DNA from: Pseudoflavitalea sp. G-6-1-2
GTDB lineage: Bacteria; Bacteroidota; Bacteroidia; Chitinophagales; Chitinophagaceae
DNA length: 64,000 nt
Direction of reading: 5' to 3'
Assembly: GCF_012927185.1 (NCBI RefSeq)
Contig: NZ_JABBGB010000001.1
Span: 1,178,001 to 1,242,000 of the forward strand
The notes under the pieces were generated by a model. That model did no database searches, was not told where the DNA came from, and saw nothing but the letters and a program-made list of their open reading frames with translations. This document shows, in pieces, positions 20,442 through 43,969 of this stretch (within the stretch, counting starts at the first letter, position 1; each line of letters opens with the position of its first letter). A program made the position numbers and the translations under genes.

Positions 20442-21452
20442 TCAGAGGGATGGTTCCAATACCGGCAGTTGTCTTGGTTCGAATGATTTTACATGCTCTG
20501 CGATATGGCGGATATGTTCTGGTGTGGTACCGCAGCATCCGCCAACGATGTTTACAAAACCCTGTGAAGCCCACTCTTCGATGAAGTGTGCGGTTTCATG
20601 AGGTTGTTCATCGTACTCTCCCATTGCGTTTGGAAGTCCGGCATTGGGATATGCAGAAGTGTAGCAGGCCGCGATATGGCTCAGCTCTTCGATATGCGCG
20701 CGCATTTCGTTGGCGCCGAGTGCACAGTTGAGGCCGATGCTCAGTGGGCGGGCATGCATTACGGATGTATAGAATGCTTCCAGTGTTTGTCCGCTCAGTG
20801 TTCTGCCAGATGCATCGGTGATGGTTCCGCTGATCATGATGGGCAGTTCGGGAAGACCGGTATCGTGGAAGAATTTCTTGATGGCGAAAATGGCTGCCTT
20901 TGAATTGAGTGTATCGAAAATGGTTTCGATCAGCAGAATGTGAACACCACCTTCCACCAGTCCTTTCGTTTGGTCGTAATATGCTTCCATCGCTTCGTCG
21001 AAAGTGAGAGCGCGATAGCCAGGATTGTTCACATCGGGAGAAAGGCTCAGTGTTTTATTGAGCGGGCCGATAGCGCCTGCCACAAACCTTGGTTTGGAAG
21101 GATCTTTGGCCGTGTACTCATCAGCAGCTTCGCGTGCGATGCGTGCAGATGCTACATTCTGTTCGTAGGCAAACTCCTGCATGCCATACTCACCCTGTGC
21201 AATTACTGTGGCTGAGAAAGTGTTTGTTTCGATGATGTCTGCACCGGCATCGAGATATTCGCGGTGAATAGCGCCGATTACATCCGGGCGTGTAATGGAG
21301 AGCGCTTCATTGTTGCCTTTGATGTCCGAAGGCCAGGTTTTAAATCTTTCACCACGATAATCTTCTTCGGTTAGCTTGTAGCGTTGGATCATGGTGCCCA
21401 TTGCACCGTCGATAACAAGGATACGTTTGCGGAGCTCTTTTTTGATGTCCAT
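20442..21452 (-). CDS. Homocysteine S-methyltransferase domain protein (MetH N-terminal part)
   Basis: 336 residues. It starts [20 protein letters not shown] and has [27 protein letters not shown] and [12 protein letters not shown]. The Cys in NC and the CC pair form the zinc site that activates homocysteine. It equals residues 1 to about 340 of single-chain MetH, and together with the downstream gene it supplies all four MetH modules. No frameshift joins them: each gene has its own start and stop and a 69-base spacer. Confidence 0.95.
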
Positions 21453-27261: not shown

Positions 27262-28626
27262 ATGAAAAATCAGAACGCACTCAGGATCTTTATCCTCGAA
27301 GATGATCTGTGGTACGGTTCTATGCTGCAGCATTATCTTTCACTGAATCCTGATTACGAAGTAAAAAGATTTGACAAACCTGGCGACCTGTTCAACCACC
27401 TGCACGAAGCCCCCGATGTAATAACCCTCGACTATTTTATGCCCGACATGGACGGCAGTGAGGTCCTCAAAAAAATCCGCGAGATCAATCCGGATATCAA
27501 TGTTGTAATCATCTCAGGTCAGGAAGACCTGCGAACTGCTGTGAGCCTGGTTACCGGCGGGGCTTTCGATTACATTGTAAAAGACGAAGACACCAAAGAC
27601 AGACTCTGGAATGTGCTGCTGCATCTGAAAGAAATTGTGGGATTGAAAAAGAAGATCGCAGCACTGGAAGAGGAAGTTGGTCGCAGAAACGATTACTCGC
27701 GTTTTCTGATCGGCCGCAGCGAATGTATGGAGAAGGTGTTTGCAATGATCGGAAAAGCTTCCGGAACCAACATCACCGTGTCTGTAACAGGCGAAACAGG
27801 AACAGGTAAAGAGATGGTAGCCAAAGCCATCCACTCCAATTCGGACAGAAGCAAAAAACCATTCATTACTGTAAACATGGCTGCCATTCCACGCGAATTG
27901 GTGGAGAGTGAATTATTTGGTCACGAAAAAGGATCATTCACTGGCGCGGTTACACGAAGAATCGGTAAATTTGAAGAAGCAAACAACGGCACGCTCTTCC
28001 TCGATGAGATCGGCGAACTGGAAGTAAGTCTGCAGGCAAAATTGCTACGGGCTTTGCAGGAACGCGAGATCACCAGGGTCGGCAGCAATGATGTGATACC
28101 GATAAACGTTCGCATCATCGTGGCAACCAACCGCGATCTGCTGGAAGAAGTGCATAAAAAGAATTTCAGGGAAGATCTGTATTATCGTCTCATTGGTCTT
28201 CCAATAAAAATGCCCCCGCTCCGCGATCGCGGAAATGATATACTGATATTGGCTAAATCATTTCTCGATCAGTTCTGCGATAACAACAGCCTTCCAAGGA
28301 AAGTGCTAAGCCCCGAATCGGCCAGAAAGCTCACCCAGTACGAGTTTCCGGGGAATGTGCGCGAGCTGCGTTCCATCATGGAACTCACTGCAGTGATGTC
28401 TGATGGCGATACCGTACAACCAGATCATATCATGATCAATACCCCTCCGGCGGCAGTACATGCCATGAACGGAAAAGAAAGAACCCTCCGTGAATATGAA
28501 GTGCAGATTATTCAGCACTTTTTAGACCGGTACGATAAAGATGTGTTGCTGGTAGCAAGAAAACTGGGAATGGGAAAATCAACCATCTATCGAATGATTC
28601 AATCCGGTGAACTGAGAACCAAATAA
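27262..28626 (+). CDS. NtrC-type sigma-54-dependent response regulator
   Basis: 454 residues from the ATG at 27262, where the receiver domain begins (RIFILEDD); the frame is open 38 codons further up. REC domain at about 7-125 with phosphoacceptor D57 and VIISGQED. AAA+ domain with GETGTGKE, GSFTGA (GAFTGA loop with Ser in place of Ala) and GTLFLDEIGEL. C-terminal Fis-type HTH (ARKLGMGKSTIYRMI). It activates sigma-54 promoters when phosphorylated. No cognate histidine kinase lies next to it; a REC-Hpt gene follows 15 bases downstream. Confidence 0.95.
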   Translation: MKNQNALRIFILEDDLWYGSMLQHYLSLNPDYEVKRFDKPGDLFNHLHEAPDVITLDYFMPDMDGSEVLKKIREINPDINVVIISGQEDLRTAVSLVTGGAFDYIVKDEDTKDRLWNVLLHLKEIVGLKKKIAALEEEVGRRNDYSRFLIGRSECMEKVFAMIGKASGTNITVSVTGETGTGKEMVAKAIHSNSDRSKKPFITVNMAAIPRELVESELFGHEKGSFTGAVTRRIGKFEEANNGTLFLDEIGELEVSLQAKLLRALQEREITRVGSNDVIPINVRIIVATNRDLLEEVHKKNFREDLYYRLIGLPIKMPPLRDRGNDILILAKSFLDQFCDNNSLPRKVLSPESARKLTQYEFPGNVRELRSIMELTAVMSDGDTVQPDHIMINTPPAAVHAMNGKERTLREYEVQIIQHFLDRYDKDVLLVARKLGMGKSTIYRMIQSGELRTK

Positions 28627-28641
28627 TCAATCGATATTTCA

Positions 28642-29442
28642 ATGTTGCAGGAAATCAATTACCGTAGCCTTGGCAAAAGAAGGATACTGGTAGCGGAGGA
28701 TACCAGCGTGAATCAATTTCTGGTGCGCAGGATCATCGAGGGATGGGGACTGGAAGTTGATATTGCCAATAACGGACAGGAAGCCTTATCAATGGTACAG
28801 GAGGGAGAATACGATCTTGTACTGATGGATATTCAGATGCCCGTAATGGATGGCATCGAAGCCACACGTCATATCAGGCAGTTGCCGCAAAGCATGAAGG
28901 CCACCATACCCATAGTGGCGCTCACTGCCAACTTCCTCAAGGGCGATCGTGAAAAATACCGCGCAGCCGGCATGAACGATTTTCTTCCCAAGCCATTCAA
29001 TGAATCTGCCTTGTTTGTGGTGGTATCGAATAATCTGCAACAGCAGGGAGTTCAAATAAAACCGAAGGTTCCGCTGCGCGAAGAAACCATCGTACACACA
29101 AATGGCAAGCTTTATGATCTCACACCGCTTCGCGGCATGTCTGGCGGAGATGAAGTGTTTGTTCATAAGCTGGTGCAGCTCTACATTACCTTGTCATCGG
29201 AATCGATGGCGCTGATGAAAGAAGAGCTGAAGAATGGCCGCTATGCGGAAGTGAGCAAGCTGGCTCATAAAATGAAATCGCCTTCCGGAACACTCAAGAT
29301 AGCGTCAGTAAAAGGGATCGTTTGTTCGATAGTCGCATTGACTGCGGAAGAATCACCCGCGAAAATGCCGGAGCTGATAGGTCAGTTGGACAAAGAGTTG
29401 GATCTTTGTCTGGGACAGCTGAAAGCTGATTTTCCGGAATAA
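28642..29442 (+). CDS. REC-Hpt phosphorelay protein
   Basis: 266 residues. Receiver at about 12-130 (ILVAEDTSVNQFLVRR, phosphoacceptor D63 in LMDIQMP, conserved K117). A linker leads to a histidine phosphotransfer domain at about 170-260 with H209 in KLAHKMKSPSG. Receiver-plus-Hpt tails usually belong to hybrid kinases, but here they stand alone without a kinase core. It probably shuttles phosphate between a distant kinase and the NtrC-type regulator in the same operon. Confidence 0.9.
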   Translation: MLQEINYRSLGKRRILVAEDTSVNQFLVRRIIEGWGLEVDIANNGQEALSMVQEGEYDLVLMDIQMPVMDGIEATRHIRQLPQSMKATIPIVALTANFLKGDREKYRAAGMNDFLPKPFNESALFVVVSNNLQQQGVQIKPKVPLREETIVHTNGKLYDLTPLRGMSGGDEVFVHKLVQLYITLSSESMALMKEELKNGRYAEVSKLAHKMKSPSGTLKIASVKGIVCSIVALTAEESPAKMPELIGQLDKELDLCLGQLKADFPE

Positions 29443-29445
29443 AAT

Positions 29446-29940
29446 ATGTCGCATCATTCTATCAGGGCCGTTCAGCGCATACCCGTTAGTGTGGAACAGG
29501 CCTGGCAATTCTTCTCAGACCCTGCAAAGCTGGTGGATATCACGCCGGCGGAATTTGCGTTCAGGGTAATTTCCCGTCATCATGGCCCCGTGGTTTATCA
29601 GGGACAGATCATAGAATATAAAGTGAGTCCTTTGTTGGGCATTCCGCTTTACTGGATGACGGAGATCACGCATGTAGTTCCGTTGAAATACTTTGTGGAT
29701 GAGCAGCGGTATGGCCCTTACAGAATGTGGCATCATCAGCATCATTTTACCGCTATCGATGGTGGAGTAGAAATGGTAGACATAGTACATTACAGCATCC
29801 CCGGATGGTGGATGGGAAGAATGATCAACTCGATACTGGTGAAGAAAAAACTTGAAAGCCTCTTCAGGTACAGGTTTCAGCGGATTGAAGAATTGCTGGG
29901 GAAATGGGAAGGGCAGCAGGTTGATGTGAAAGTTTACTGA
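29446..29940 (+). CDS. SRPBCC-family protein
   Basis: 164 residues. It starts RAVQRIPVSVEQAWQFFSDP, the typical START/SRPBCC first strand and helix, with VSPLLGIPLYWMTEITHV, YGPYRMWHHQHHF and VDIVHYSIPGWW. It is a small ligand-binding fold of the YfcH/polyketide-cyclase-like type found as a single domain in many Bacteroidota. The ligand is unknown. It follows the REC-Hpt gene by 3 bases and is probably co-transcribed. Confidence 0.82.
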   Translation: MSHHSIRAVQRIPVSVEQAWQFFSDPAKLVDITPAEFAFRVISRHHGPVVYQGQIIEYKVSPLLGIPLYWMTEITHVVPLKYFVDEQRYGPYRMWHHQHHFTAIDGGVEMVDIVHYSIPGWWMGRMINSILVKKKLESLFRYRFQRIEELLGKWEGQQVDVKVY

Positions 29941-29971
29941 GTTGCGATTTGATAATCTGAAAATCATATAC

Positions 29972-30013
29972 AAAAAGAAACCCCGGCTGAGTTTGCAGCC
30001 GGGGTTTCTTTTT
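29972..30013. terminator. Bidirectional terminator
   Basis: AAAAAGAAACCCCGGCTG, loop AGTTTG, CAGCCGGGGTTTCTTTTT: an 18-base near-perfect stem between the convergent SRPBCC and TPR genes. Confidence 0.93.
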
Positions 30014-30028
30014 ATGATAAAACATTTA

Positions 30029-30682
30029 TTATCCTGGGATTCTGGAGATGTACTTTTCGATCTCTTTAACTTGTTTTACAACGTCTGGGTTGGTAGGCTT
30101 CAGGGCCTTTGTTTTACGGAAGAACTCTTTGGCAGCGCGGAACTCATGTTTGTTCATCATGATATTGCACATCTGCAGGTAGGCAACGGCTTCGCTTTCT
30201 TTGTCGGCGATACCGGCGCGGAGGGCTTCGCGGATATATTTTTCACCTTGTTTGAAATCACCTTTCTGAAGGGAGATCATTCCCATCTGGAGGTAGTTGG
30301 CTCCCTTCATGTCTTTGGTCATGTTGGTGGTGAGCGACATACCTTTTTTCATATTGGCTTCGGCTGCATCGAAGTTCTGATTAGCCATATCGAGCTGCCC
30401 TTTGATAGTGAAATAGGCAGAGCGGATAGGCTTGATAAGCAGACCGGGAAATTTAACGGAGTTCACAACGCGCTGGGCGCCTTCGATATCGCCGGCTTCC
30501 ATGTATTCCTGTACCAGTCTGAGTGGTCCGATCAGGAAGTGGCTGGCCAGCAGGATCACTCCTATAAAATATAAAGGAAATGAAGGCCAGAAGCCTGCAT
30601 AGACATTGGCAGCAACACCACCGAGAATGAGTATGATGCCGAGGTAAAAGCGATAACGGATGATCCAGGAATAAAACTTCAT
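30029..30682 (-). CDS. TPR-repeat membrane protein
   Basis: 217 residues from the ATG at 30682 (MKFYSWIIRYRFYLGIILIL). Two hydrophobic helices (about 9-26 and 31-52) are followed by about four TPR-like helix pairs, with FDAAEANMKKGMSL, MGMISLQKGDFKQGEKYIREAL and MMNKHEFRAAKEFFRKTKAL. TPR units mediate protein contacts, and no enzyme motif is seen. The frame is open 11 codons upstream of the chosen start. Confidence 0.8.
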   Translation of the reverse strand: MKFYSWIIRYRFYLGIILILGGVAANVYAGFWPSFPLYFIGVILLASHFLIGPLRLVQEYMEAGDIEGAQRVVNSVKFPGLLIKPIRSAYFTIKGQLDMANQNFDAAEANMKKGMSLTTNMTKDMKGANYLQMGMISLQKGDFKQGEKYIREALRAGIADKESEAVAYLQMCNIMMNKHEFRAAKEFFRKTKALKPTNPDVVKQVKEIEKYISRIPG

Positions 30683-30777
30683 ACAATAATTAATAGGGCG
30701 GCAAAGATAGGTCAAAGAATTGAGAGGAAGCTAAGTGCCTTTTTTTGAAATAGTTTCCGGGGGAAGGTGGAAAATAT

Positions 30778-30785
30778 TACTTTTG
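30778..30785 (+). promoter_or_regulatory. -7 element of tRNA-Arg
   Basis: TACTTTTG (TAnnTTTG) about 45 bases before the tRNA. The -33 region is weak (TTTC). The leader between contains a hairpin, CGCC...GGGCG around GGAG/CTCC. Confidence 0.6.
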
Positions 30786-30829
30786 CGGGAATTCGCCAAG
30801 GGGAGGAATCTCCGGGCGAGTGGTGATTA

Positions 30830-30904
30830 GGTCCTGTAGTTCAATGGATAGAATAGAAGTTTCCTAAACTTTTGATACAGGTTCGATTCCTGTCAGGACT
30901 ACCA
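30830..30904 (+). tRNA. tRNA-Arg (anticodon CCU)
   Basis: Full cloverleaf: acceptor GGTCCTG with CAGGACT (G-U at the end), D stem GTTC/GAAT, anticodon stem GAAGT/ACTTT with loop TTCCTAA (anticodon CCT at 30863-30865), T arm ACAGG-TTCGATT-CCTGT, and CCA encoded. It reads AGG codons. The 3' half also forms the end of an antisense recombinase frame, so it is a probable integration site. Confidence 0.93.
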
Positions 30905-31424
30905 TACCGGAAAGCAGCAAATTTTTGTCTGTTTTCCGGTTTTTTGTTTGTCGGAAACCCGCGTCTAGTGTGCATACCAGCGAAACCACCTCATTGAGCC
31001 GAAGAGTTCGATGTTGCGATCCGTCAAAAATGAGTTTTCCGGGGAACATCGAACTCACGATGTTGCGTTTTTCAGGGATGGTTCCGTTGATATAGGCCTG
31101 GTCAATGGCTATCAGGTTATGAACCCCCTTCTGGAGCAGGCCTTCAATTCCCTTTTCCCGTTCGGGAAGTTTCGACAATTGTTTCTCTAGGTCGGTTATC
31201 TGCTTTGTACATTCGGTTTTGACAATCAGAAAGTCTTCATAGGAGAATTGGTTGTCGGCTGCTTTGTTCCGGGTGGTGTTGATGCGGGTGGTCAACTCTT
31301 CGATTTGGGATAGAACTTGTCTTCGTTCTATGCTCATATCGCTGGTTTGTTGCTTTGTATGCTTCGTGAAGTAGCTCTGCATACAGATCGCAATAGGCTG
31401 GGTTGGGCGCATATAGTTTATCAA
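30864..31424 (-). pseudogene. Serine recombinase remnant (C-terminal part) ending inside tRNA-Arg
   Basis: About 186 codons. It matches only the C-terminal helical/coiled-coil part of large serine recombinases as seen in Bacteroidota (RRQVLSQIEELTTRINTTRN, FLIVKTECTKQITDLEKQL, VSLVCTLDAGFRQTKNRKTD). The N-terminal resolvase domain with the catalytic serine is missing. The last 13 codons (VVLTGIEPVSKV-stop) are the antisense of the tRNA 3' half, and the stop overlaps the anticodon loop. That is the expected form of a recombinase gene whose attachment site is a tRNA. The GmrSD-like gene starts its 3' end only 28 bases upstream. Confidence 0.75.
30906..30945 (+). terminator. Terminator after tRNA-Arg
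   Basis: ACCGGAAA (30906-30913) pairs with TTTCCGGT (30933-30940), then a T-run. On the other strand the same bases are recombinase codons. Confidence 0.7.
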
Positions 31425-31451
31425 TTGGAGATCACATTGGCGTTTCTTTAA

Positions 31452-33176
31452 TTATAGCTTCCATATCGTGTAGGCCTCATTTGCTAATTCTGTTGTTCTC
31501 TGTTCGGCATCTTTGTCAGTCCAGCTTCCTTGGTTTTTATATTTGATACAAAAATCTTGAGTAATCTTAAATGCTGATTTTCTGTAATGGGGAATTTTTG
31601 TTTTTAGATCCTTATTTCCAACTTTTGAATTAATTTCTGAAGCTAAAGGTAAAAGGTTTCCAATTTTCCATACCCAAGGGTGTAAATTGCTTTGTGGCTC
31701 AATGTGTTCAAGAGAAAGATTACTTGCTGTAAGTTCACTGGTATTTTGTCTGTTAATTTCAATATTTGTAAAAATATATTGAATCAACTTCTTGTTCTTA
31801 GTTAACCAATCTGTGAATTCTAACTCGTGGAACTTTCTAATGAATAAATCGTTGTTTGGGAGTTTATGTGTTAGTTTAAGGATAAGTTCATTTATTGACT
31901 TTTGAGCGTCTTTTCTTGACGTTTTACTTCTTAGGTCTCTAGATGCTTTTGAATAAATTCCTTCTATTCCAGAAGCCCTTTGGGAACAAACAGCAGTGAA
32001 ACAAAAATGGAATTTTTCAATTTTTTGTAAAGCCTCTCTTAGGTCAGTTATATTGATAAGCTTCTCTTTATAAGACTTTAGTAAAACCAAAACGAAAGAG
32101 CGATGCTGTGATACGCGAAATAAATTAAGGGCTACAAGTGAATTGTAAACTGGTTTAGCTTCTTGTGATTTCCAATCTGTTGGCGTTGGCGCAATTATTT
32201 GAGTATAATCGCTCGCAGCTTCTAATAGTTGTTGAAGAAATTGTTTATACTCTTTTTTTGTTTCTGGAATTAATTTTTGGAAGGAATCATAAATTCTGGC
32301 TTCTGTCAGAAAACTATATTTAGAAATCCAAAAATGCCTAAAAAAGGTGGATAGATTTACTGACTCATCTCTTTGGCGTAATGTAAATTTTATTTTTTTC
32401 CATGTTTCCTTTGCGTAATCAGTAGGGTGATCATCGTCAAGAAGAGTAAATATTTTGTTCTTAATTAAATCAATAGTTTCTAAATCTTTTCCTTTTGCAT
32501 TCAAGGTCTCAAAAATGGTATAAGCTTCTTTTAAGTTGTCAACCGTAATAAATATTGTCTTGAAGGACAAAATTTGATCCCTTAGAATCTTTAGGAGATC
32601 AGTGTAAGAATAATGCTTAGTGTTTTTGCTTGTCTCTTTAAAATCAAAACGAAGATTCTCTTCCTTTAATCGCCTTATATAATAGTCATATGTTAACAAT
32701 AGTTTTTGTTCTTCTTCTGTTTCTGGAATATAATCTAATTCTTTATCGAAATTTTGAATTCTCCTTTGTAAGAAGGGTTTGGGGCTTTCATTTTCAAGCT
32801 TAAAGAATGGTCTGTAGTCCCCATCCTTTCCTTCAACATAGGAATAGCAACTTTTTGATAGAGGTTCATCAATTTCCTTTAAAATTTGGGTTAAAGCTGA
32901 AAAAATAACTGTAATAGTAGTTAACCTTTGTTGACCATCAACTACTAAAAACTCTGTGTCTTTAGAATCATCTCCTACCAAGACAATTGAACCAATAAAA
33001 TAGTCATTTGTCTTTAATTCATTTTGTTCAATATAAATTTGCGAGAGAATATCATCCCAAAACATATCATGTTCAGGCTTTTCCCAAGAAAATTCTCTTT
33101 GAAACCTTGGTATAATATATTTTCTGTTTAATGTTAGTATGTCTTTTATTGTGCGTGTATATGCGAACAAGTTCAT
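31452..33176 (-). CDS. GmrSD-like protein: DUF262 (ParB-like) + DUF1524 (HNH)
   Basis: 574 residues. DUF262 begins with IPRFQREFSW (22-31) and has the ParB-like NTP-binding motif VVDGQQRLTT (near 78-87). A helical middle precedes the C-terminal DUF1524 HNH region, with LEHIEPQ (H491) and GNLLPLASEIN. The fusion is the architecture of GmrSD, a type IV restriction system against modified phage DNA, and of related defence nucleases. The gene is markedly more A/T-rich than its neighbours, which suggests recent transfer. It abuts the recombinase remnant. Confidence 0.9.
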   Translation of the reverse strand: MNLFAYTRTIKDILTLNRKYIIPRFQREFSWEKPEHDMFWDDILSQIYIEQNELKTNDYFIGSIVLVGDDSKDTEFLVVDGQQRLTTITVIFSALTQILKEIDEPLSKSCYSYVEGKDGDYRPFFKLENESPKPFLQRRIQNFDKELDYIPETEEEQKLLLTYDYYIRRLKEENLRFDFKETSKNTKHYSYTDLLKILRDQILSFKTIFITVDNLKEAYTIFETLNAKGKDLETIDLIKNKIFTLLDDDHPTDYAKETWKKIKFTLRQRDESVNLSTFFRHFWISKYSFLTEARIYDSFQKLIPETKKEYKQFLQQLLEAASDYTQIIAPTPTDWKSQEAKPVYNSLVALNLFRVSQHRSFVLVLLKSYKEKLINITDLREALQKIEKFHFCFTAVCSQRASGIEGIYSKASRDLRSKTSRKDAQKSINELILKLTHKLPNNDLFIRKFHELEFTDWLTKNKKLIQYIFTNIEINRQNTSELTASNLSLEHIEPQSNLHPWVWKIGNLLPLASEINSKVGNKDLKTKIPHYRKSAFKITQDFCIKYKNQGSWTDKDAEQRTTELANEAYTIWKL

Positions 33177-33776
33177 ATCGTTTTTTCATTAATGGATTAA
33201 ATAGTTTTCTCTGAAAGAGAGGTATAGAGCGATTGGGTTTCTCAGTAGGAAGTGGCTATTCATAATTTGAAGAGATATTTGGAAAATGTTCGAGAATTAA
33301 TATTCAAGGCAAATCAATAACACTAGATCTAAAATAAAAAAAATCACCAAATGTCAATGAGAATCCTTAATTATAGCTGAAGCTGGTAGTGAATTCTTTA
33401 TTTATTTAAATGTATGATTGTTAGTGACTTATGTGACTTCTTGATTTCCCTGAAGTCCATATGGCGATTTTCTTAGTTAACCTGTCTGATATTTGTCCGA
33501 TCTTCTCCGTCCTCAGCTGCTTGAGTTTTATTCGGTTCTTACGAATCTGATGAAACAAACCGAAGAGTTTTTTTATCATTCCGCAGAAATAGCTTCTAAC
33601 GCTTCATCTCACAAGGGATTGAATTCTCTGATACAGAGATTCATGAACAATACCATCCGGAAAGTCGCTTCATCGTAATTCCCGCTATGCCAAATTGGGT
33701 CATTTCACGGGCAATCCATACTCAGCTGTCAGCTTATATTCATTGCCTGATGTATGTCATCCCAAAAAACCTTATT
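33177..33776. other. A/T-rich accessory spacer
   Basis: 600 bases without a convincing gene. The left two thirds share the low GC of the GmrSD-like gene. Composition returns to the chromosomal average around 33430-33500, which may mark the edge of the inserted segment. A TTG-initiated frame (33493-33678, 61 codons) shows no family features. No copy of the tRNA 3' end was found here. Confidence 0.5.
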
Positions 33777-35306
33777 ATGGAAAATACCAACAACGAATCA
33801 AACCTTGCCACCGGCCCGGTACGAGTTGCCTATTCCCGCGGCCAGCTAAAAACTATCAAGTATTATGATCTTCTCGTAGTAGCCTGTGATCCCAGAAATC
33901 TCGAAGGCATCTGTGACTACCACACCAAAGAATTTCATCTGTTTAACGAACTTCAAAATTTCACCTTTCACACCACCCTCATAAAAGTTCCGCTTCTAAG
34001 AAAACAAGAGCACGGTGTGATCTTCGCTCCTTACGTGCTCGATAAAATGCAGGGATCGGTGTACGGTTTCCGCAATGAGTCCGCCAAGCGATTCGGATTG
34101 AGATTTTCAAATACCATGACAGAAAATCTGGTTACAGTTTATCAGCTTCAGGGCCCTTCTTCAAATCCTTACAGTCCCGACCAGTTCGCAAAAATTCTTG
34201 CGAGTGAATTGCCTAACCTCGATTGGTGGCCGTTCGGAACAAATTATACAGTTGTAGACAGTCTCACCACGCCTTACTTCGATCATTATTCTCAGGAAAA
34301 TCTGCAGGCGCAACTTCCATGGAATTTGCTCGATCTGCAGGGGCAGAACAATACATTGTATGTTCATGCATCTACCTGCTTTGAATCTGCATTGGATTGC
34401 TGGGGATATGCCAATATGCTTTTGGCGGATGGATCTGCAGCAAGGAAATCATTACCAACAAACAAAGCAGCCCGCATCGCCATTCTTGGAGCAGGTGTAA
34501 GTGGACTCCTGTTTGCCGTTAAGCTGAAAAATCTCGGTTATACAAATATCGAACTGCTTGAATCCACGGACAGGTATGGTGGAAAAACGCATACCATCAA
34601 AATGGATGGACCATATCCTCCCGGATATTTTGAGCCAACCTATTGCGAGTTGGGCACCTGTTATATGTCGCCTGCATATGATCCGATGGTTGTAGATTTG
34701 CAAAAGTATCTTGTAGGAAATTCAAGAATCACTTTCGGTCAGGGGAACGATGGATTCAGAGCCATCGTAACAAGAGGTCAGCTTCCAGCCAATTTCAATG
34801 CTCCGCTGGTGATGGGCTATAATGAATACTGCCTGCGCAAAGCCGAAGCTGAACTGGGCCTTAAACCCGGTTGGTTTGATGATAAAGAAGCACAGGCCGA
34901 TCTGTTGATCGAACTCGGAAAGTATGCACTGCTGCACAAATGGATTTTTGGAGATGGATTTCCCATGCCTTCAACTCCTCCAGCGGAATTTCTGAAAGAA
35001 CATTCTTCAAAAACATTCATAGAATTTCTTCGCTATCATAAAATGGATTGTCTGATTGGAATTCTTCAGTATGGATACGAAGTTCAGGGATATGGAACCT
35101 TATCCACCATCCCTGCTTTTTATGGTCTGATATGGATAACCCCGGCAATTATCGAAACGATCATCAAAGATGGACTTGGTGGAAATACACCCATAGTCAC
35201 CGCGTGGTCTAAAGGATGGGGAGATGTTTGGGATCAGATAGTATCAAAAGAAAACCTGAAAATCCTATACAATGTAAAACTGCTGACTATTGAAAGAAAC
35301 CGATAG
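33777..35306 (+). CDS. Flavin amine-oxidase-like protein with swapped halves (apparent circular permutation)
   Basis: 509 residues from the ATG at 33777. The dinucleotide-binding motif ILGAGVSGLLFAVKL, normally at the N-terminus of amine oxidases, lies at about 236-250, followed by the usual ESTDRYGGKTHTI. The last residues are NLKILYNVKLLTIERN. The first residues are GPVRVAYSRGQLKTIKYYDLLVVACDP, the segment that normally follows that strand. Around 194-217, LYVHASTCFESALDCWGYAN resembles the usual C-terminal FAD-contact helix. So the C-terminal half precedes the N-terminal half, joined by a linker of about 15 residues. Function: probable FAD oxidoreductase, substrate unknown. Confidence 0.7.
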   Translation: MENTNNESNLATGPVRVAYSRGQLKTIKYYDLLVVACDPRNLEGICDYHTKEFHLFNELQNFTFHTTLIKVPLLRKQEHGVIFAPYVLDKMQGSVYGFRNESAKRFGLRFSNTMTENLVTVYQLQGPSSNPYSPDQFAKILASELPNLDWWPFGTNYTVVDSLTTPYFDHYSQENLQAQLPWNLLDLQGQNNTLYVHASTCFESALDCWGYANMLLADGSAARKSLPTNKAARIAILGAGVSGLLFAVKLKNLGYTNIELLESTDRYGGKTHTIKMDGPYPPGYFEPTYCELGTCYMSPAYDPMVVDLQKYLVGNSRITFGQGNDGFRAIVTRGQLPANFNAPLVMGYNEYCLRKAEAELGLKPGWFDDKEAQADLLIELGKYALLHKWIFGDGFPMPSTPPAEFLKEHSSKTFIEFLRYHKMDCLIGILQYGYEVQGYGTLSTIPAFYGLIWITPAIIETIIKDGLGGNTPIVTAWSKGWGDVWDQIVSKENLKILYNVKLLTIERNR

Positions 35307-35328
35307 CAAATAACTGATAGTGTTTCGG

Positions 35329-35364
35329 ACCGGAAAAGATGTTTGTTCTTTTCCGGTTTTTTTT
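35329..35364 (+). terminator. Rho-independent terminator
   Basis: ACCGGAAAAG, loop ATGTTTGTT, CTTTTCCGGT and eight T, after the permuted flavoprotein gene. Confidence 0.92.
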
Positions 35365-35394
35365 CAAATGATATTTCCGGAGGAAGCAACTCAA

Positions 35395-35847
35395 TCACAA
35401 TCTGAGTTTGTAACCGATATGTGAAGATTCAAAGCCAAGTCGTTCATAAAAGCGATGAGCATCTGGTCGTAATTTATCTGTTGTGAGTTGAACCAGCCCG
35501 CAACCTGCATTCCGGCATTGTTCTATCGCCCATTGGAACATGGCTTCTCCGATTTTTTCTCCTCTTTTGTTGCTGGCAATACGCACTGCTTCTATCTGTC
35601 CGCGTCGCATTCCGCTGCGCGCGAGCCCTGGTATGAAAGTCAGTTGCAGCGTTCCGATTATTATGTTGTTGTCTTCAACAACAAGCAAAAACTGGTTTGG
35701 ATCTTTATCGATCTCTTCAAATGAATCGAGGTTCTTCTGATTGTCATTCTGTTTTTCTCGTAATGCTCCAAGAATATCATCTGACAGTAGCTGTATTATT
35801 GCTGGAAGGTCTGATATCTCCGCCCTGCGAAAAATAAGGTTTATCAT
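35395..35847 (-). CDS. GNAT-family N-acetyltransferase
   Basis: 150 residues. It starts IFRRAEISDLPAIIQLLSDD. The acetyl-CoA site is in the RIASNKRGEKIGEAMFQWAI segment (R-x-x-G-x-G/A variant), with the C-terminal AHRFYERLGFESSHIGYKL typical of GNAT enzymes. It transfers acetyl from acetyl-CoA to an amine, and the substrate cannot be predicted. It is a single gene, convergent with the flavoprotein gene. Confidence 0.92.
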   Translation of the reverse strand: MINLIFRRAEISDLPAIIQLLSDDILGALREKQNDNQKNLDSFEEIDKDPNQFLLVVEDNNIIIGTLQLTFIPGLARSGMRRGQIEAVRIASNKRGEKIGEAMFQWAIEQCRNAGCGLVQLTTDKLRPDAHRFYERLGFESSHIGYKLRL

Positions 35848-35971
35848 ATGAGTTCACTTATATGTTGAATGGTCTTGCGAATTTATCATATCCATGTGGC
35901 TAATGAGGAATTGAAGAAGAAATTAATAAGGGAAGTTGTTGCAGGCTTCTGATCCAATGATGAAAATTAAT

Positions 35972-36003
35972 GAAAAATCCCTGATCTGCTAAGACCAGGG
36001 ATT
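35972..36003 (-). terminator. Terminator after the tandem-DUF262 gene
   Basis: On the minus strand AATCCCTGGTC, loop TTAGCA, GATCAGGGATT (one G-U), then TTT. Confidence 0.8.
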
Positions 36004-36030
36004 GGGTACTAAATTTACAACACTTTCTTG

Positions 36031-38352
36031 CTAAGCAATCGCCAGTGTGTTTTTTTGACTTGGAGTTTGCCCATATTGCGTCCATAATTCAGTTAGGCTG
36101 TTGTCAAATCTTCCAACTGCATCAGGGTTTCCAAGCAGTGAAAATAACCTGCTGATCTTGCTTTTGATATCTGCACGGTTATCAGCAATTTTTTCAACAG
36201 GAACTCCCTGAAGAGCCAGCCAGAGAATATAAAATCCCATGGATGATCTTGCAACACCTCTTTCGAGAAGCAGATCAAGCTTGTGATTCCTGAATGCATC
36301 TGTAGTTTTTGATGAGAGATTTTCTGTCAGAATTTTCAGTTTCTCGATGAATCCAGATTCAAAGCTGTTGAACGAAGTAATAAATGGCTTATGCATAAGA
36401 CGGTTCTCAAGGAGTTTGGTGATATGTGCCTTGTTGGTAATGCGAATCGCAATCTGGCTATGTGTTCTGAAAATAGCCATAAACTCTCTCATTTTGCTTA
36501 ATGTGGGAGGCTCAGTGCCTGCCAGAAAATGCAGGTAGAGAAGGCTGGTCATTAGTTCTTCATTCAGCATTCTGGTGTCAGCTTTTTTAAGATGCAACCA
36601 GGGATAACGTTGAAGAATTTCCTTGATTGATTTTATTATATCCGGATTGGCATACGCATTCCAATACTCAAAGCTGTTAGGTTTGATCGGATATGGTTTA
36701 TAGTTCAGTCTTTTGAATAGTTCTTCAGATCTGAATGTGGCGTTTTCAGATTCTTTGATTTCGATAATATTTAAGTCAAAATTCTGGATCTTCCGCTTAT
36801 TGGCATCTGAGAGACGTTCAAAACTTTTATTGTTCAGCTCCGTCAACATCCCGGAATGTAGATTTAATCTGAACTTATTCTTTTTGGAGCGCTCATATTT
36901 CCCTTGTGGGTTAAGGTATTGTTCGCCTAAGTAACCCAGGATGGACAGCAATCTTTGCTGTCCATCAATCACTTCAAACACACCATCTTTTCTTACGAAA
37001 ACAAATATTGGGTGGATTTTTATTCCCAGCAAAATGCTCTCGATCAGAGAAGATGCTTTGGCAATATTCATAACCTCTCCTCTTTGGTAAGGAGGACGGA
37101 GGTCAAATCTGCCCTTCCTCATTCTGTCTATAATATCGGTAACAGTGTACTTGGTCGGTTCCGCTTTGGTGAAGATCGTGATATTCGATTCCTCTGGAGC
37201 AAAGTCCGGCAAATCTTCAGTAGTAAATGATTGTTGAGCCTTTTTGAAGTTAATAGTCCCCGATAAATATTCTTCAAAAGAGAAATTGAGTTGCTGGCTA
37301 AAGAATAATGCAATCTGCCTGTACCGCATTTTGATATGAGTGGATAGATTGGATTTGTACATGGTGTACTTGTCGAAATGCTTGATGAAGTGCTGAATCA
37401 GCCTGCTTTTGAACTGAGCACTATTGATAATTTCCTGATCTCCGTTTTCGCTTTTGGTTACTGATAATGCCCAAAACAAACAATCAAAAAGAAATCCATT
37501 CGAGCCGGGTTTTATTTTATCAAGCATACTCTTGATTTCGGACAGGTAATTAATGGAAGTCTGAAATTCGTTGAAAATAGATGGAATATCTACTCCTTTT
37601 TTGTCGCGGCTCTCGTGAAGGGAATAGAGATGGAAGTACTTGTTGGCTATATCGTCTCTGTCATAAGAAAAATTACTGATGGGGATTTTATGCAATACCA
37701 GCATTTGCCTGATATGTTGCATTAATGTTTCGATGCTTTTTGTCTTATGGTCAAAAATTGAAGAAACCTGTTCGAGAAAATCATTGTTTTTGAGAAGATT
37801 GATTTTGAAGTAATTGTTAAGGTCGTTATGAAGATAGTCAGCAAGAAAAACCTCTTCTTTTCTCAATGGTGAAATGCCAAGGTTATATCTTTTGAAAATC
37901 TCTCTTGTAAATGCGTCTTTTATCTGAGATCTGTCGTCGGTGTCGTTGGTGGCGAAAACGATAAATCGCAGGCGTGTATCGAGAATTCTATTTTGAGTTA
38001 TTGTATCAAGTTGTGAGTATTTTTTATCAGATAAATACCATAATTTATCAAGTCCATGGCGTTTTAAACTGAACCCATCATTGATAAATCTCTCTATGGT
38101 TTCCACTCTCTGCCTACCGTCTATAATTTCCCATATTTCTGTTGTATCAAATACTACAATAGGAGGGATTTCACCATGAAGAAGAATTGTTTCTATGAAA
38201 TAAGTCGCTTTTACTTCCGTCCAGACATAGTTTCGTTGATAAGGTGGGTTGTAATATAACTTATAACTGGAATTGGATTTATAAATAGAACTGATGGAGA
38301 TAAGTTTATCAGAGATATGAGCTTTATTGCAAGCTTCGATGAGCGTTGTCAT
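36031..38352 (-). CDS. Protein with two DUF262 (ParB/GmrS-like) domains
   Basis: 773 residues. Domain 1 (about 25-230) has YNPPYQRNYVW (34-44) and IDGRQRVET (77-85). Domain 2 (about 400-640) has RPPYQRGEV (419-427) and IDGQQRLLS (462-470). Both thus keep the ParB-like NTP-binding signature. No HNH/DUF1524 nuclease follows, unlike GmrSD. The C-terminal about 130 residues are helical. It may be a two-headed sensor or NTPase relative of GmrS acting with an unlinked partner. It lies 75 bases behind the sigma-factor gene with a terminator hairpin between. Confidence 0.85.
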   Translation of the reverse strand: MTTLIEACNKAHISDKLISISSIYKSNSSYKLYYNPPYQRNYVWTEVKATYFIETILLHGEIPPIVVFDTTEIWEIIDGRQRVETIERFINDGFSLKRHGLDKLWYLSDKKYSQLDTITQNRILDTRLRFIVFATNDTDDRSQIKDAFTREIFKRYNLGISPLRKEEVFLADYLHNDLNNYFKINLLKNNDFLEQVSSIFDHKTKSIETLMQHIRQMLVLHKIPISNFSYDRDDIANKYFHLYSLHESRDKKGVDIPSIFNEFQTSINYLSEIKSMLDKIKPGSNGFLFDCLFWALSVTKSENGDQEIINSAQFKSRLIQHFIKHFDKYTMYKSNLSTHIKMRYRQIALFFSQQLNFSFEEYLSGTINFKKAQQSFTTEDLPDFAPEESNITIFTKAEPTKYTVTDIIDRMRKGRFDLRPPYQRGEVMNIAKASSLIESILLGIKIHPIFVFVRKDGVFEVIDGQQRLLSILGYLGEQYLNPQGKYERSKKNKFRLNLHSGMLTELNNKSFERLSDANKRKIQNFDLNIIEIKESENATFRSEELFKRLNYKPYPIKPNSFEYWNAYANPDIIKSIKEILQRYPWLHLKKADTRMLNEELMTSLLYLHFLAGTEPPTLSKMREFMAIFRTHSQIAIRITNKAHITKLLENRLMHKPFITSFNSFESGFIEKLKILTENLSSKTTDAFRNHKLDLLLERGVARSSMGFYILWLALQGVPVEKIADNRADIKSKISRLFSLLGNPDAVGRFDNSLTELWTQYGQTPSQKNTLAIA

Positions 38353-38374
38353 TTTTTAATGATGTTAATATGGT

Positions 38375-38409
38375 AAAAAATCAGGAGGAGAGACAGACGC
38401 TCCTCCTGA
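38375..38409 (-). terminator. Terminator between sigma factor and tandem-DUF262 gene (possible attenuator)
   Basis: On the minus strand TCAGGAGGAG, loop CGTCTGTCT, CTCCTCCTGA, then six T. A perfect ten-base stem. No room or clear motif for a new promoter is visible between it and the next start at 38352, so the downstream gene seems to rely on read-through or a hidden promoter inside the sigma gene. Confidence 0.85.
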
Positions 38410-38427
38410 GGATTATTGGATTTGCAC

Positions 38428-39174
38428 TTACATTTTTCCAAGCATATCTATAAGTTGCTTTATAGTTATGCCGAAAAGTCTACAAACTTCATTTGGATCC
38501 TCATCGGAATGTTGATAAAAGTAAAGGGCAATCGTAGCTTCCTTCTTACTTAAATAAACATTGATCTTATCCTGCAATGAAGGTGGAATTGTGTTTTTCC
38601 TGGCACGGTCAAGATTATTCATGATGATTTGCAGACGGGATGCTGCCTGTTGAATTCTTTTCTTCACTGCCTGTATAGAAAGACTTAAGTCCTGGGCAAT
38701 TTTATTTTCAGGCATTCCATCCAGGTACTTCTCTACAATAATGCGTAAGTCAGGAGGAAGGCTTGGTGTAGCTTTTCTCAACAGTTCAAGATCGGTTTCA
38801 GTAATTTCTATTGAATTATCTTTCGGGAAAGGCTTCTGGTGAGGTAACCGCCTGTCGGAGACAAATTCAATAAATTCTGTTGGAGCACACCTTTTCCTAT
38901 AACGTCTGAATTCATAAAGGGACCCGAGTACGCGTTTTCTCAGGTAAAAATAGATGTGAGATGAGTTGACCATGTCTGCTCTTTTTTTCCAGAGGCTGAA
39001 AAATGCCTCCTGAGTAAAATCAGCGATATCATTCTTATCCGGATGAATCTGGAAACCATATTCTAACGTAGGTTGGTAAAACCATTCGTAAATATGTTGT
39101 AAACCTACGGGGTCTCCGTCTCTGAATTTTATAAACTGAATAATGTCAGTTAGATTTCTGAACCCAGGGTTCAT
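38428..39174 (-). CDS. ECF-like RNA polymerase sigma factor with C-terminal extension
   Basis: 248 residues, longer than the usual 170-200 of ECF factors. Region 2 (about 30-95) has NDIADFTQEAFFSLWKKR. Region 4 (about 135-195) has LPPDLRIIVEKYLDGMPENK and LSLSIQAVKKRIQQAASRLQ. A further segment of about 50 residues (DKINVYLSKKEATIALYFYQ, VCRLFGITIKQLIDML) resembles an extra helix-turn-helix. No anti-sigma gene and no SusC/D partner is nearby; the next gene is the tandem-DUF262 protein. Confidence 0.8.
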   Translation of the reverse strand: MNPGFRNLTDIIQFIKFRDGDPVGLQHIYEWFYQPTLEYGFQIHPDKNDIADFTQEAFFSLWKKRADMVNSSHIYFYLRKRVLGSLYEFRRYRKRCAPTEFIEFVSDRRLPHQKPFPKDNSIEITETDLELLRKATPSLPPDLRIIVEKYLDGMPENKIAQDLSLSIQAVKKRIQQAASRLQIIMNNLDRARKNTIPPSLQDKINVYLSKKEATIALYFYQHSDEDPNEVCRLFGITIKQLIDMLGKM

Positions 39175-41593: not shown

Positions 41594-43969
41594 ATGAGAA
41601 AAACTCTACTAGCATTCCTATGCGTTGGAGCGAGCCTGGTGACGATTGCCCAACAAGCACCCAAACGCGAAATGAGGGGTGCCTGGATCGCCACCTATTC
41701 AAACATCGACTGGCCCAACCGCACTCAAACACCAGCACAGCAACGTGCAGCATTTCTTTCCATTCTCGAACATCACAAAGCAACAGGACTGAATACCCTG
41801 TTCATTCAGGTAAGAAGTCAATGCGATGCAATGTATGCGAGCAGCATCGAACCGTGGTCTGCAGATCTCACCGGTACGCAGGGCAAGCCACCCACAGAAT
41901 TTTGGGACCCCATGCAATTTATGATTGATGAATGCCACAAGCGTGGCATCGAATTTCATGCATGGTTGAATCCTTACCGTGCAGCGGGCAACTCAAACAG
42001 CCTGCCATCTTTTTCCGAAACCCATGTAGCCAAACAACATCCTGAGTGGTTATTAAGTCAGGGCACATTAAGAGTATTAGACCCCGGACTGCAACCGGTT
42101 CGTGAGTACATTCTCAGTGTGATCACCGATATTGTAAACCGATACGATGTGGATGGAATTCATTTCGATGATTACTTCTATCCACCCGCAGCGCCGTCAG
42201 GAACTACGCCATACAACGATGATGCGAGCTTCGCAAACGATCCACGCGGATTCACCAATCGTGCCGACTGGAGAAGGGACAACGTAAACCTGCTCATCAA
42301 AAAAGTAAATGATACCATCCTTCATCTCAAGCCATGGGTGAAATTTGGCGTATCTCCTTCGGGCATTTACAGAAACAGCACCAACCCGGAAATCGGAACT
42401 CCAACCAGCGGACTGGAACACTACACCACTTTGTATGCCGATACAAAAAAATGGCTGCAGCAAGGTTGGGTTGATTACATCGCTCCGCAGGTGTATTGGT
42501 ATATCGGGCAACCAGGCGCAAACTATGCAGCCATCGTTCCGTGGTGGAATAATCAGGCCAATGGACGACATATCTACATCGGTATGGCCGGATACAAAGT
42601 GAATGATCCTGCAATGGGCGTCAACTGGGCAAACCCTTCTCAGATCCCCAATGAAATGAGACTGAACAGAACTTTCAGCAATATCTACGGTCAGTCCATT
42701 TATAATACAAGCAGCATGAGAAGTACTGCCAGACTGGGTTTCAGAGATTCACTCAGGCTGTTCTTCTACAATCTTCCCGTATTGCAGCCACGCATGCCGT
42801 GGCGCGATAGCATCGCTCCCGCGCAGCCCAATGCATTGTATGTGGCGAAATTCAGAACAGACTCTGTTGTTCTCAAATGGCAGCAGCAGCCATCTTCCGA
42901 TGAATTGAACAGAACCAGACAATATGTGATCTATCGTTCAACAAGCGAGCAGATCGATACCGCGAATGCTGCAAACATCCTTGCCATCACAAATGCAGAT
43001 CAAGCTGCATTCACAGATGTTTCCGGGGAAGATGGAGCAACTTACTACTACGCGGTGAGCGCTCTTGACCGTTTTCATAATGAGAGCAATGCTTCCAACA
43101 GTGCATCGAATTTGCCTCCGGCAATTACCTGCCCTGATCCGCAACAACTGTACACAGATTCTTCCTGCAACATTACTGTGCCAGACTACTCGGCACTTGT
43201 AAGAGTAAACGGGCAGATAAATGCTCCGGGCATCACAGTAACGCAAACTCCTGCTGCAGGCACTGTAATCAATGGGCATCATAATTTTGATATTACTTTC
43301 AGTGCTATTGATGAAGCCAGTCATAAAACTGAATGTGTATTCCCTATTCAATTAAAAGACACCATCGCTCCTGTGATCAGCAATGCAGGTGTTAGTACAG
43401 CCGAACTCTGGCCTCCGAATCACAAGCTGAAAGATGTTGCCGTGATTTACGATGCGAAAGACAATTGCAGCACAGTACAAACCAGTTTGTCTGTAACCAG
43501 CAATGAACCTGTAGCTGGCGGAATCTATGGAAACACTTCTCCAGACTGGGTTGTAGTGAATGATCATCTGGTTCAGCTGCGTGCAGAATACGGGCCATTC
43601 GGAAATGGAAGAATCTACACAATCACCATCACTGCAACAGACAGCGTGGGTAACTCCAGCCAGCAGCAGGTGCAGGTGAAGGCGCCGAGATTCCCGGAAA
43701 ATCCGAATCCACATGCAATGCTTACTGTGAAGGCATATCCGAACCCAACGCCTGATCAATTCTATGTGATCACACTGAGCACTTCATTGCAAACGATCAG
43801 TTACACAGTAACCGATCTTGCAGGCAAAGTGATAGAATCGAAAACAGGACTGTCCGCTAACGGTCTCTTCAATATTGGGTCCAGCTATCAGCCAGGAATG
43901 TATATTCTGAAAGTTTCACAGGGTCAGCAGTCGCAGACGCTGAAACTGGTGAAGACGGCAAGGAAGTAA
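41594..43969 (+). CDS. GHL10/DUF187-family glycoside-hydrolase-like protein with T9SS sorting domain
   Basis: 791 residues. Signal peptide (1-19), then the GHL10 barrel (about 25-380) with EMRGAWIATYSNIDWPNR, NTLFIQVRSQCDAMY, FHAWLNPYR and VDGIHFDDYFYP. A fibronectin-like segment (about 400-500) and HYR-like modules (about 505-700) follow. The C-terminal about 75 residues start VKAYPNPTPDQFYV and end YILKVSQGQQSQTLKLVKT, a type A sorting domain. It is predicted to be exported by type IX secretion to the surface. The substrate is probably peptidoglycan or another glycan. Confidence 0.92.
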   Translation: MRKTLLAFLCVGASLVTIAQQAPKREMRGAWIATYSNIDWPNRTQTPAQQRAAFLSILEHHKATGLNTLFIQVRSQCDAMYASSIEPWSADLTGTQGKPPTEFWDPMQFMIDECHKRGIEFHAWLNPYRAAGNSNSLPSFSETHVAKQHPEWLLSQGTLRVLDPGLQPVREYILSVITDIVNRYDVDGIHFDDYFYPPAAPSGTTPYNDDASFANDPRGFTNRADWRRDNVNLLIKKVNDTILHLKPWVKFGVSPSGIYRNSTNPEIGTPTSGLEHYTTLYADTKKWLQQGWVDYIAPQVYWYIGQPGANYAAIVPWWNNQANGRHIYIGMAGYKVNDPAMGVNWANPSQIPNEMRLNRTFSNIYGQSIYNTSSMRSTARLGFRDSLRLFFYNLPVLQPRMPWRDSIAPAQPNALYVAKFRTDSVVLKWQQQPSSDELNRTRQYVIYRSTSEQIDTANAANILAITNADQAAFTDVSGEDGATYYYAVSALDRFHNESNASNSASNLPPAITCPDPQQLYTDSSCNITVPDYSALVRVNGQINAPGITVTQTPAAGTVINGHHNFDITFSAIDEASHKTECVFPIQLKDTIAPVISNAGVSTAELWPPNHKLKDVAVIYDAKDNCSTVQTSLSVTSNEPVAGGIYGNTSPDWVVVNDHLVQLRAEYGPFGNGRIYTITITATDSVGNSSQQQVQVKAPRFPENPNPHAMLTVKAYPNPTPDQFYVITLSTSLQTISYTVTDLAGKVIESKTGLSANGLFNIGSSYQPGMYILKVSQGQQSQTLKLVKTARK

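Follow-up and report, generated by a model that had tools for sequence, protein, structure and literature searches.

A probable natural circular permutation of an FAD flavoprotein in Pseudoflavitalea sp. G-6-1-2

The gene and its genomic setting

A stretch of 64,000 nucleotides from Pseudoflavitalea sp. G-6-1-2 (hereafter the window) holds a gene for an FAD flavoprotein in which the N- and C-terminal parts stand in exchanged order compared with related proteins. Its features and those of its surroundings are collected in Table 1. The plus-strand frame has no internal stop and covers 33687-35306 when counted from the first ATG; this start was discarded, as the 30 residues that it adds have no counterpart in the orthologue L002 (see below). 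Further 5′, the frame stays open for about 59 codons upstream of 33777. The initial annotation had given the coordinates of the gene, a dinucleotide-binding motif at residue 238 and two end segments of the chain, all of which proved correct when checked against the ORF and the alignment. The last segment of the protein is LKILYNVKLLTIERNR, while PVRVAYSRGQLKTIKYYDLLVVACDP is the first segment after the initial 13 residues. In the alignment, the mid-chain closing motif QGQNNTLYVHASTCFESALDCWGYANMLL pairs with QGQRHTFYVGGLMNFELVETIVEYTKALV of the normal-order protein L010.

Table 1. Features of the permuted gene and of its surroundings (window coordinates; residues of the window protein)
Feature	Position	Strand	Remarks
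Permuted FAD flavoprotein gene	33777..35306	+	509 codons and TAG; start matches residue 1 of orthologue L002
Short N-terminal tail, poorly conserved	33777..33815	+	residues 1-13, before the first conserved segment; outside the native-order profile match
Part that is C-terminal in normal-order relatives	33816..34451	+	residues 14-225, model 253-423 of 427; profile and alignment
Closing motif of normal-order proteins, here mid-chain	34338..34424	+	residues 188-216, QGQNNTLYVHASTCFESALDCWGYANMLL
Linker from usual C-terminus to usual N-terminus	34422..34469	+	residues 216-231; best rotation points inside
Part that is N-terminal in normal-order relatives	34452..35303	+	residues 226-509, model 6-239 (profile match)
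GAGVSG dinucleotide-binding FAD motif	34488..34505	+	residues 238-243; NAD_binding_8 match 29.6 bits
Terminator-like hairpin and T run	35327..35359	+	13 pairs, 20 bases 3′ of the stop
tRNA-Arg(CCT), edge of the variable region	30830..30904	+	same-genus blastn comparisons
Recombinase C-terminal piece beside the tRNA	30864..31424	-	phrog_95 integrase, E 3.8e-5, profile 452-550 of 651; no Pfam match at E 0.01

The GC content of the gene is 44.0%, against 44.9% for the window. The 600 bases on its 5′ side (33177-33776) have 35% GC and contain no recognisable gene; a 61-codon frame at 33493-33678 gave no Pfam match at E 0.01. Three terminator-like sites were found in 2.2 kb, against a shuffle mean of 1.4 (sd 1.1), and the one listed in Table 1 has by far the most pairs. 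The permuted gene is alone on its strand, with a GmrSD-type gene (31452-33176) on one side and a GNAT acetyltransferase gene (35395-35847) on the other, both on the minus strand. An operon was discarded since these neighbours, as well as the downstream neighbour of L002, lie on the opposite strand, the upstream side of L002 being off its contig. A defence role by way of the flanking GmrSD-type genes was also discarded, the sole PADLOC match being a Rossmann match of 55 residues.

Comparison with other genomes of the genus locates the edge of a variable region at the tRNA. The blastn match of genome G001 covers 28146-31414 of the window and that of G004 covers 28204-30903, with none further right over the 26 kb and 8 kb compared, respectively; tblastx adds two pieces of 37-40 residues to the right of these matches. 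The permuted gene was absent from all five other genomes of the genus. Because neither same-genus blastn match reaches the permuted gene and the gene is missing from these five genomes, it was probably acquired, though its GC content is near that of the window.

Behind the tRNA-Arg and the recombinase piece, genes of 31-43% GC with defence-like content occupy 30830-39174, and this stretch is likely a variable island with defence-like genes. The best PADLOC models in it are HEC-06 and Orf5 for the GmrSD-type protein and NsnA for a protein of 773 residues (36031-38352), which carries two GmrSD_N stretches per chain, also matches phrog_2598 (unknown function) and gave no GmrSD_C match in Pfam at E 0.01. 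Genome G001 has the recombinase piece without the cargo of the island. Elsewhere in the window, TIGR04183, a T9SS sorting domain that points to the Bacteroidota, is matched by the protein at 41594-43969 (50.7 bits, cut-off 23), and methionine synthase extends over two adjacent minus-strand frames: 17670-20372 corresponds to positions 339-1232 of the 1234 in the MetH model, and 20442-21452, read by eye, to the N-terminal part missing from it.

Order of the two halves

In its written order, the window protein matches Pfam Amino_oxidase (PF01593) with residues 241-506, over profile positions 1-229 (30.7 bits, cut-off 19.8), and NAD_binding_8 with residues 236-280, and residues 1-225 have no match in the same scan at E up to 1. 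When the halves are placed in the usual order, a single PF01593 match of 42.7 bits spans the junction (profile 1-260). The L002 protein has no PF01593 match, either as written at E 0.01 or re-ordered at E 0.1.

For the analysis of order, a native-order profile of 427 model positions was made from six normal-order proteins (L010, L011, L012, L018, L019 and L020). The window protein as written scores 66.7 bits and covers model 6-239 only. All 509 rotations were scored, and cutting the protein before residues 216-230 raises the score to 103.7 bits at best, over model 6-423 of 427; every cut in this plateau lies within 2 bits of the best. The re-ordered alignment that the initial annotation had proposed as a check thus supports a circular permutation. 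Similarly, among all 518 rotations of the L002 protein, cuts before residues 227-247 give 114.0 bits (model 10-422), against 62.4 bits unrotated. In the five normal-order controls, each scored on a profile without itself and its near copies (with L010 standing also for L011, to which it is 94% identical), no rotation ever surpassed the unrotated form by more than 0.8 bits. The rotated score of 103.7 bits is not due to chance, because none of 500 shuffled versions of the protein exceeded 4.0 bits, and only 227 of them gave any match. Profile-profile comparison (hhalign) of the permuted pair, the window protein and L002, with the normal-order set aligned 422 columns in the re-ordered form (E 1.6e-31) and 233 columns as written (E 1.9e-19).

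The halves tile the model once, without overlap, with positions 9-239 and 253-423 in the window protein and 12-239 and 255-422 in L002. Taken separately, the N-chain half scores 29.6-32.3 bits on the native-order profile in the window protein and 46.7-47.4 bits in L002 (model 255-422); in neither protein does it match a profile of the amine-oxidase type. The C-chain half scores 71.7 bits on the native-order profile versus 41.3 on the amine-oxidase-type profile in the window protein, and 65.4 versus 38.7 in L002, an uneven contest in that the latter profile has three rows, two of them from one genome. A reverse scan, in which the normal-order proteins were rotated and scored with the two-row profile of the permuted pair, favoured interior cuts in five of six cases (39-66 versus 20-32 bits). 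Its outcome was less clean: the part that aligns is mainly the one over the old termini, so that the plateaus are 302-341 cuts wide; L019 reached 14.7 bits and preferred no rotation.

Among solved structures, the best match is PDB 2b9w, with E 5.8e-8 for the profile of the pair and E 1.2e-6 for the window protein alone. The phmmer match consists of crossed pieces, residues 229-278 to 4-53 of the structure (22.9 bits) and residues 158-203 to 361-406 (weak, 5.3 bits); the second piece rises to 12.7 bits with the permuted pair as profile. The score is not raised by re-ordering (34.7 vs 34.9 bits), as HMMER adds separate pieces in either order. In the 60 PDB matches listed, the best aligned stretch is mostly 45-90 residues, with a maximum of 143.

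An orthologue with the same order, normal-order relatives and distribution

A search for an orthologue of the same order, which the initial annotation had called for, was successful. Six exact peptide patterns were run across the genomes of 84,980 species, a scan that reaches close relatives only; two stretches matched and one of them, L002, is a relative. It lies on contig NZ_JASJDK010000129.1 of a metagenome-assembled genome (MAG), Mastigocoleus sp. MO_188.B34, by its name a cyanobacterium, as an ORF at 360-1916 with its own start and stop (518 residues). It is 52% identical to the window protein in the same permuted order, aligned from the first to the last residue, and both proteins retain the Rossmann motif for FAD as well as the closing motif. 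Over 504 aligned codons, the two genes are identical at 59.5, 72.8 and 36.3% of first, second and third positions, respectively; in the light of the sequences, this concentration of differences at third positions is that of coding sequence under purifying selection. Common to two distant genomes, the swapped order therefore seems to have been retained as a design, and not to stem from damage or faulty sequencing. The searches made gave no orthologue of normal order that is similarly close.

The contig of L002 starts 359 bases before the gene. On its 3′ side, genes for NAD(P)H-quinone oxidoreductase subunit 4 (NCBIfam 919.7 bits, cut-off 645) and homoserine kinase lie on the opposite strand; the binning of the contig was judged from the names of these two neighbours only, which presumably suit a cyanobacterial chromosome.

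Normal-order relatives were found with the re-ordered profile of the pair. L010 and L011, from the class of the Mastigocoleus genome, cross the junction near position 282 of that profile (169-310 and 184-310, respectively), and L012, of the same class, matched only over profile 4-72. With L010 as query, plasmid-borne relatives of normal order were fetched from Photobacterium (L018), Tolypothrix (L019) and Nostoc (L020). The set includes near copies (L010/L011 94% and L012/L020 75% identical), and the permuted proteins are 18-25% identical to it. L010 aligns with 2b9w over its entire length (2-461 to 3-420, 117 bits). These six proteins share fold segments throughout with the permuted pair and lie on the same side of the tree against the amine-oxidase types, but they start at the Rossmann motif and end at the closing FAD segment, unlike the pair.

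A fourth full-range plasmid candidate, L021/H4 (1092-2397, Nostoc plasmid pNPM1), was omitted from the set on account of its annotation as two CDS, a split or broken normal-order copy. The first CDS (110 residues) matches NAD_binding_8 and Amino_oxidase profile 2-69, while the tblastn match to L010 and L018 falls in the second (281 residues), the rest of the protein, which has no Pfam match. With respect to neighbours, L019 (1378-4269) adjoins a non-ribosomal peptide synthetase on the opposite strand of its plasmid, and L012 (482-2832) comes immediately after a co-oriented gene for a terpene synthase (Terpene_syn_C_2, 148.5 bits). The position of L012 suggests that other lipid-like or isoprenoid-like substrates are possible for some relatives.

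In a full-length tree of 11 rows (L005, for which no suitable frame was found, was left aside), the permuted pair and the six normal-order proteins separate from three amine-oxidase types with support 100/97. In trees of the halves, the N-chain half joins the normal-order set with 100/97 and the Rossmann half weakly, with 70/76, both carrying a long-branch warning. The stem leading to the pair is long, with 2.07 changes per column, and L019 and L023 (see below) are also long branches. Owing to the identity of 18-25% and the long stem, the alignment near the junction is loose and the sister of the pair within the set is unplaced. The amine-oxidase-like affiliation given in the initial annotation has accordingly been corrected: the relatives are of the fatty-acid-isomerase type (2b9w group), separate from the three amine-oxidase-type proteins compared. 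A conserved active-site lysine is a feature of flavin amine oxidases. At K70 of the window protein, both permuted proteins have Lys, offset by gaps from the Lys of the amine-oxidase types, and L020, of normal order, has a Lys in the same column.

Copies and further members were sought in several collections. The initial annotation had stated that no second partial copy lies on either side; this was borne out, as among the tblastn matches listed for the 64 kb window the next best stands at E 0.54 with the window protein and at 0.056 with L002 as query. The source genome has no other match at E 0.01, nor with the re-ordered profile at 1e-5, where the two rows obtained are the two halves of the same gene. 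A remnant of tandem duplication beside the gene was considered, and none was seen in the window comparison. Plasmids and phages gave no tblastn match to the window protein at 1e-5, and three scans of viral contigs gave no relative. With the L002 protein at 0.01, 22 plasmid records were obtained, none with 80% query coverage; among the 20 of 22 listed, the best coverage is 26% and all fall in the Rossmann region.

No permuted member besides the pair was found among the relatives (1/59), in the phylum (1/395) or in the class of the orthologue (1/388). The single positive was the source genome itself in each of these samples, and again among 99 relatives searched with the re-ordered profile and among 328 genomes of the order. 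In two other samples, the re-ordered profile added L010, L011 and L012, all of normal order (4/145), and two Rossmann matches of 50-51 residues, of which L022 lies in a frame of 87 codons and L023 in one of normal order (3/320). These samples overlap, and in the scans of 395, 388, 320 and 328 genomes only the first three or four candidates per genome were scored. L010 as query gave three positives among 116 genomes in the class of the orthologue and none among 118 in the window's phylum, the latter being no sign of absence. The window protein and L002 are the only two permuted members known. The permutation presumably arose once, ahead of the divergence of these two proteins, and the gene was presumably transferred between lineages.

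Interpretation and comparison with known systems

Taken together, these results make it highly probable that the window protein is a naturally circularly permuted FAD flavoprotein of a fatty-acid-isomerase-like branch of the amine-oxidase fold: rotation gives back end-to-end homology and the order is inherited in the pair. In the mechanism suggested by the sequences, the chain would begin midway along the ancestral protein, between LKILYNVKLLTIERN and VRVAYSRGQ, and would continue to the FAD segment at the ancestral C-terminus; after a linker of some 15 residues, it would extend from the Rossmann FAD motif up to the new C-terminus. The two stretches at the break are read as neighbouring strands; we assume that the break lies in a surface loop and that the joined ends are close in this fold. 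Both parts would refold into one FAD-binding and one substrate domain, so that a single complete fold with bound FAD would be expected. The Rossmann motif (residues 233-280) would hold the ADP part of FAD, and QGQNNTLY...WGYANMLL (residues 188-216) would close over the flavin end, which we take to be its role in the normal-order relatives of the fold.

The rival explanations differ in what they make of the exchanged order. That pieces of a normal gene were joined wrongly at an assembly or sequencing junction could draw on the start of the L002 contig close to the gene, but two assemblies have one order end to end at 52% identity and the window's own contig is 2.3 Mb long, which makes this the least credible reading, practically negligible. 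A decaying or rearranged pseudogene would suit the patchy stretch beside the tRNA and the 600 upstream bases of low GC content without a recognisable gene. The 509 open codons, the kept FAD motifs, the dominance of third-position changes between the two genes and the terminator-like hairpin after the stop argue against it, and we consider it very improbable. The shared order and the third-position pattern of L002 render both assembly error and fresh decay very unlikely, and the view of the initial annotation that random decay is not involved is upheld. A chimaera, made by tail-to-head fusion of halves from two different flavoproteins, is slightly less remote, though still improbable: the Rossmann half joins the normal-order set weakly (70/76), but each half fits the normal-order family better than the amine-oxidase-type profile, with the unevenness of that contest noted above, and the model is covered a single time by the two together. 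As a point against the permutation as a kept design, the sparse distribution may also reflect a gene that is erratic and little used.

The route to the permutation is a separate matter. The initial annotation had proposed circular permutation through tandem duplication and trimming; the rotation tests and L002 bear out the permutation, but not the route, since fission into two genes with re-fusion in reversed order fits equally and no intermediate was found. Fission and fusion, to which we give somewhat less than an even chance, gains from the two CDS annotated for L021, which indicate that members get split, though at another point, and both routes are named in PMC3281007; against it, there was no sign of a split pair with the order reversed. 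Neither route is favoured because neither a reversed split pair nor a tandem copy was seen.

Returning to the natural permutation as the preferred reading, we lean towards a stable, functional and inherited permutation of the two-domain amine-oxidase-type FAD fold, shared by one genome of the Bacteroidota and one of the cyanobacteria, with new termini possibly at a substrate-side hairpin where they could open a new reaction. Within the reach of the searches, it would be the first natural case in this fold. The isomerase of P. acnes takes a hydride from its substrate and returns it, isomerising fatty-acid double bonds. As this characterised relative, the nearest by sequence, acts on fatty-acid double bonds, hydride chemistry is the best guess by analogy, and a flavin-mediated hydride reaction on a hydrophobic substrate, with the hydride perhaps returned, is put forward only tentatively as a rather unlikely specific assignment.

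A two-domain FAD enzyme is a hard case for permutation, as the cofactor site is woven from both chain ends. Since both halves must meet for the FAD pocket, a working protein would mean that this fold can accommodate new termini in mid-chain; the protein would then be a natural test of folding order in this fold and a scaffold for engineered flavoenzymes with moved termini. The case is also a warning for annotation, because Pfam reports only half of the permuted protein, as an amine oxidase.

The closest known system is that of 2b9w, named 'putative aminooxidase' in the PDB; fatty acid isomerase is the enzyme name for 2bab in PMC6162330. The GxGxxG motif, the GYG...PA.Y segment and the QG..NT.Y closing motif are common to 2b9w and the permuted pair, but 2b9w has 424 residues in normal order and the window protein aligns with it in separate, crossed pieces. 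Members of this group are homologous across the whole fold, as the window protein is after rotation (model 6-423 of 427), and have the Rossmann motif at the N-terminus, which in the window protein stands at residue 238. Flavin amine oxidases, LSD1 and protoporphyrinogen oxidase (PF01593) share the Rossmann FAD motif, and the window protein, unlike L002, scores above the Pfam cut-off; they are of normal order, and the three amine-oxidase-type proteins lie outside the clade of the permuted pair, which does not group with them in the 11-row tree.

Lectins and many other families provide known cases of natural circular permutation. In open-access PubMed Central full texts, from which subscription papers are mostly absent, no natural circular permutation of this fold was found. 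FMN-bind1 multi-domain proteins are circularly permuted (PMC11334425), LucY permutants are engineered (PMC4408115), and permuted DNA/RNA methyltransferases and eukaryotic glutathione synthetase are documented (PMC1282579, PMC2876114). All of these are permuted flavin-binding, Rossmann-type or enzyme folds like the present one, but they belong to other folds, and the LucY permutants are man-made. Natural circular permutation and FAD flavoproteins are thus each known, and their combination looks new.
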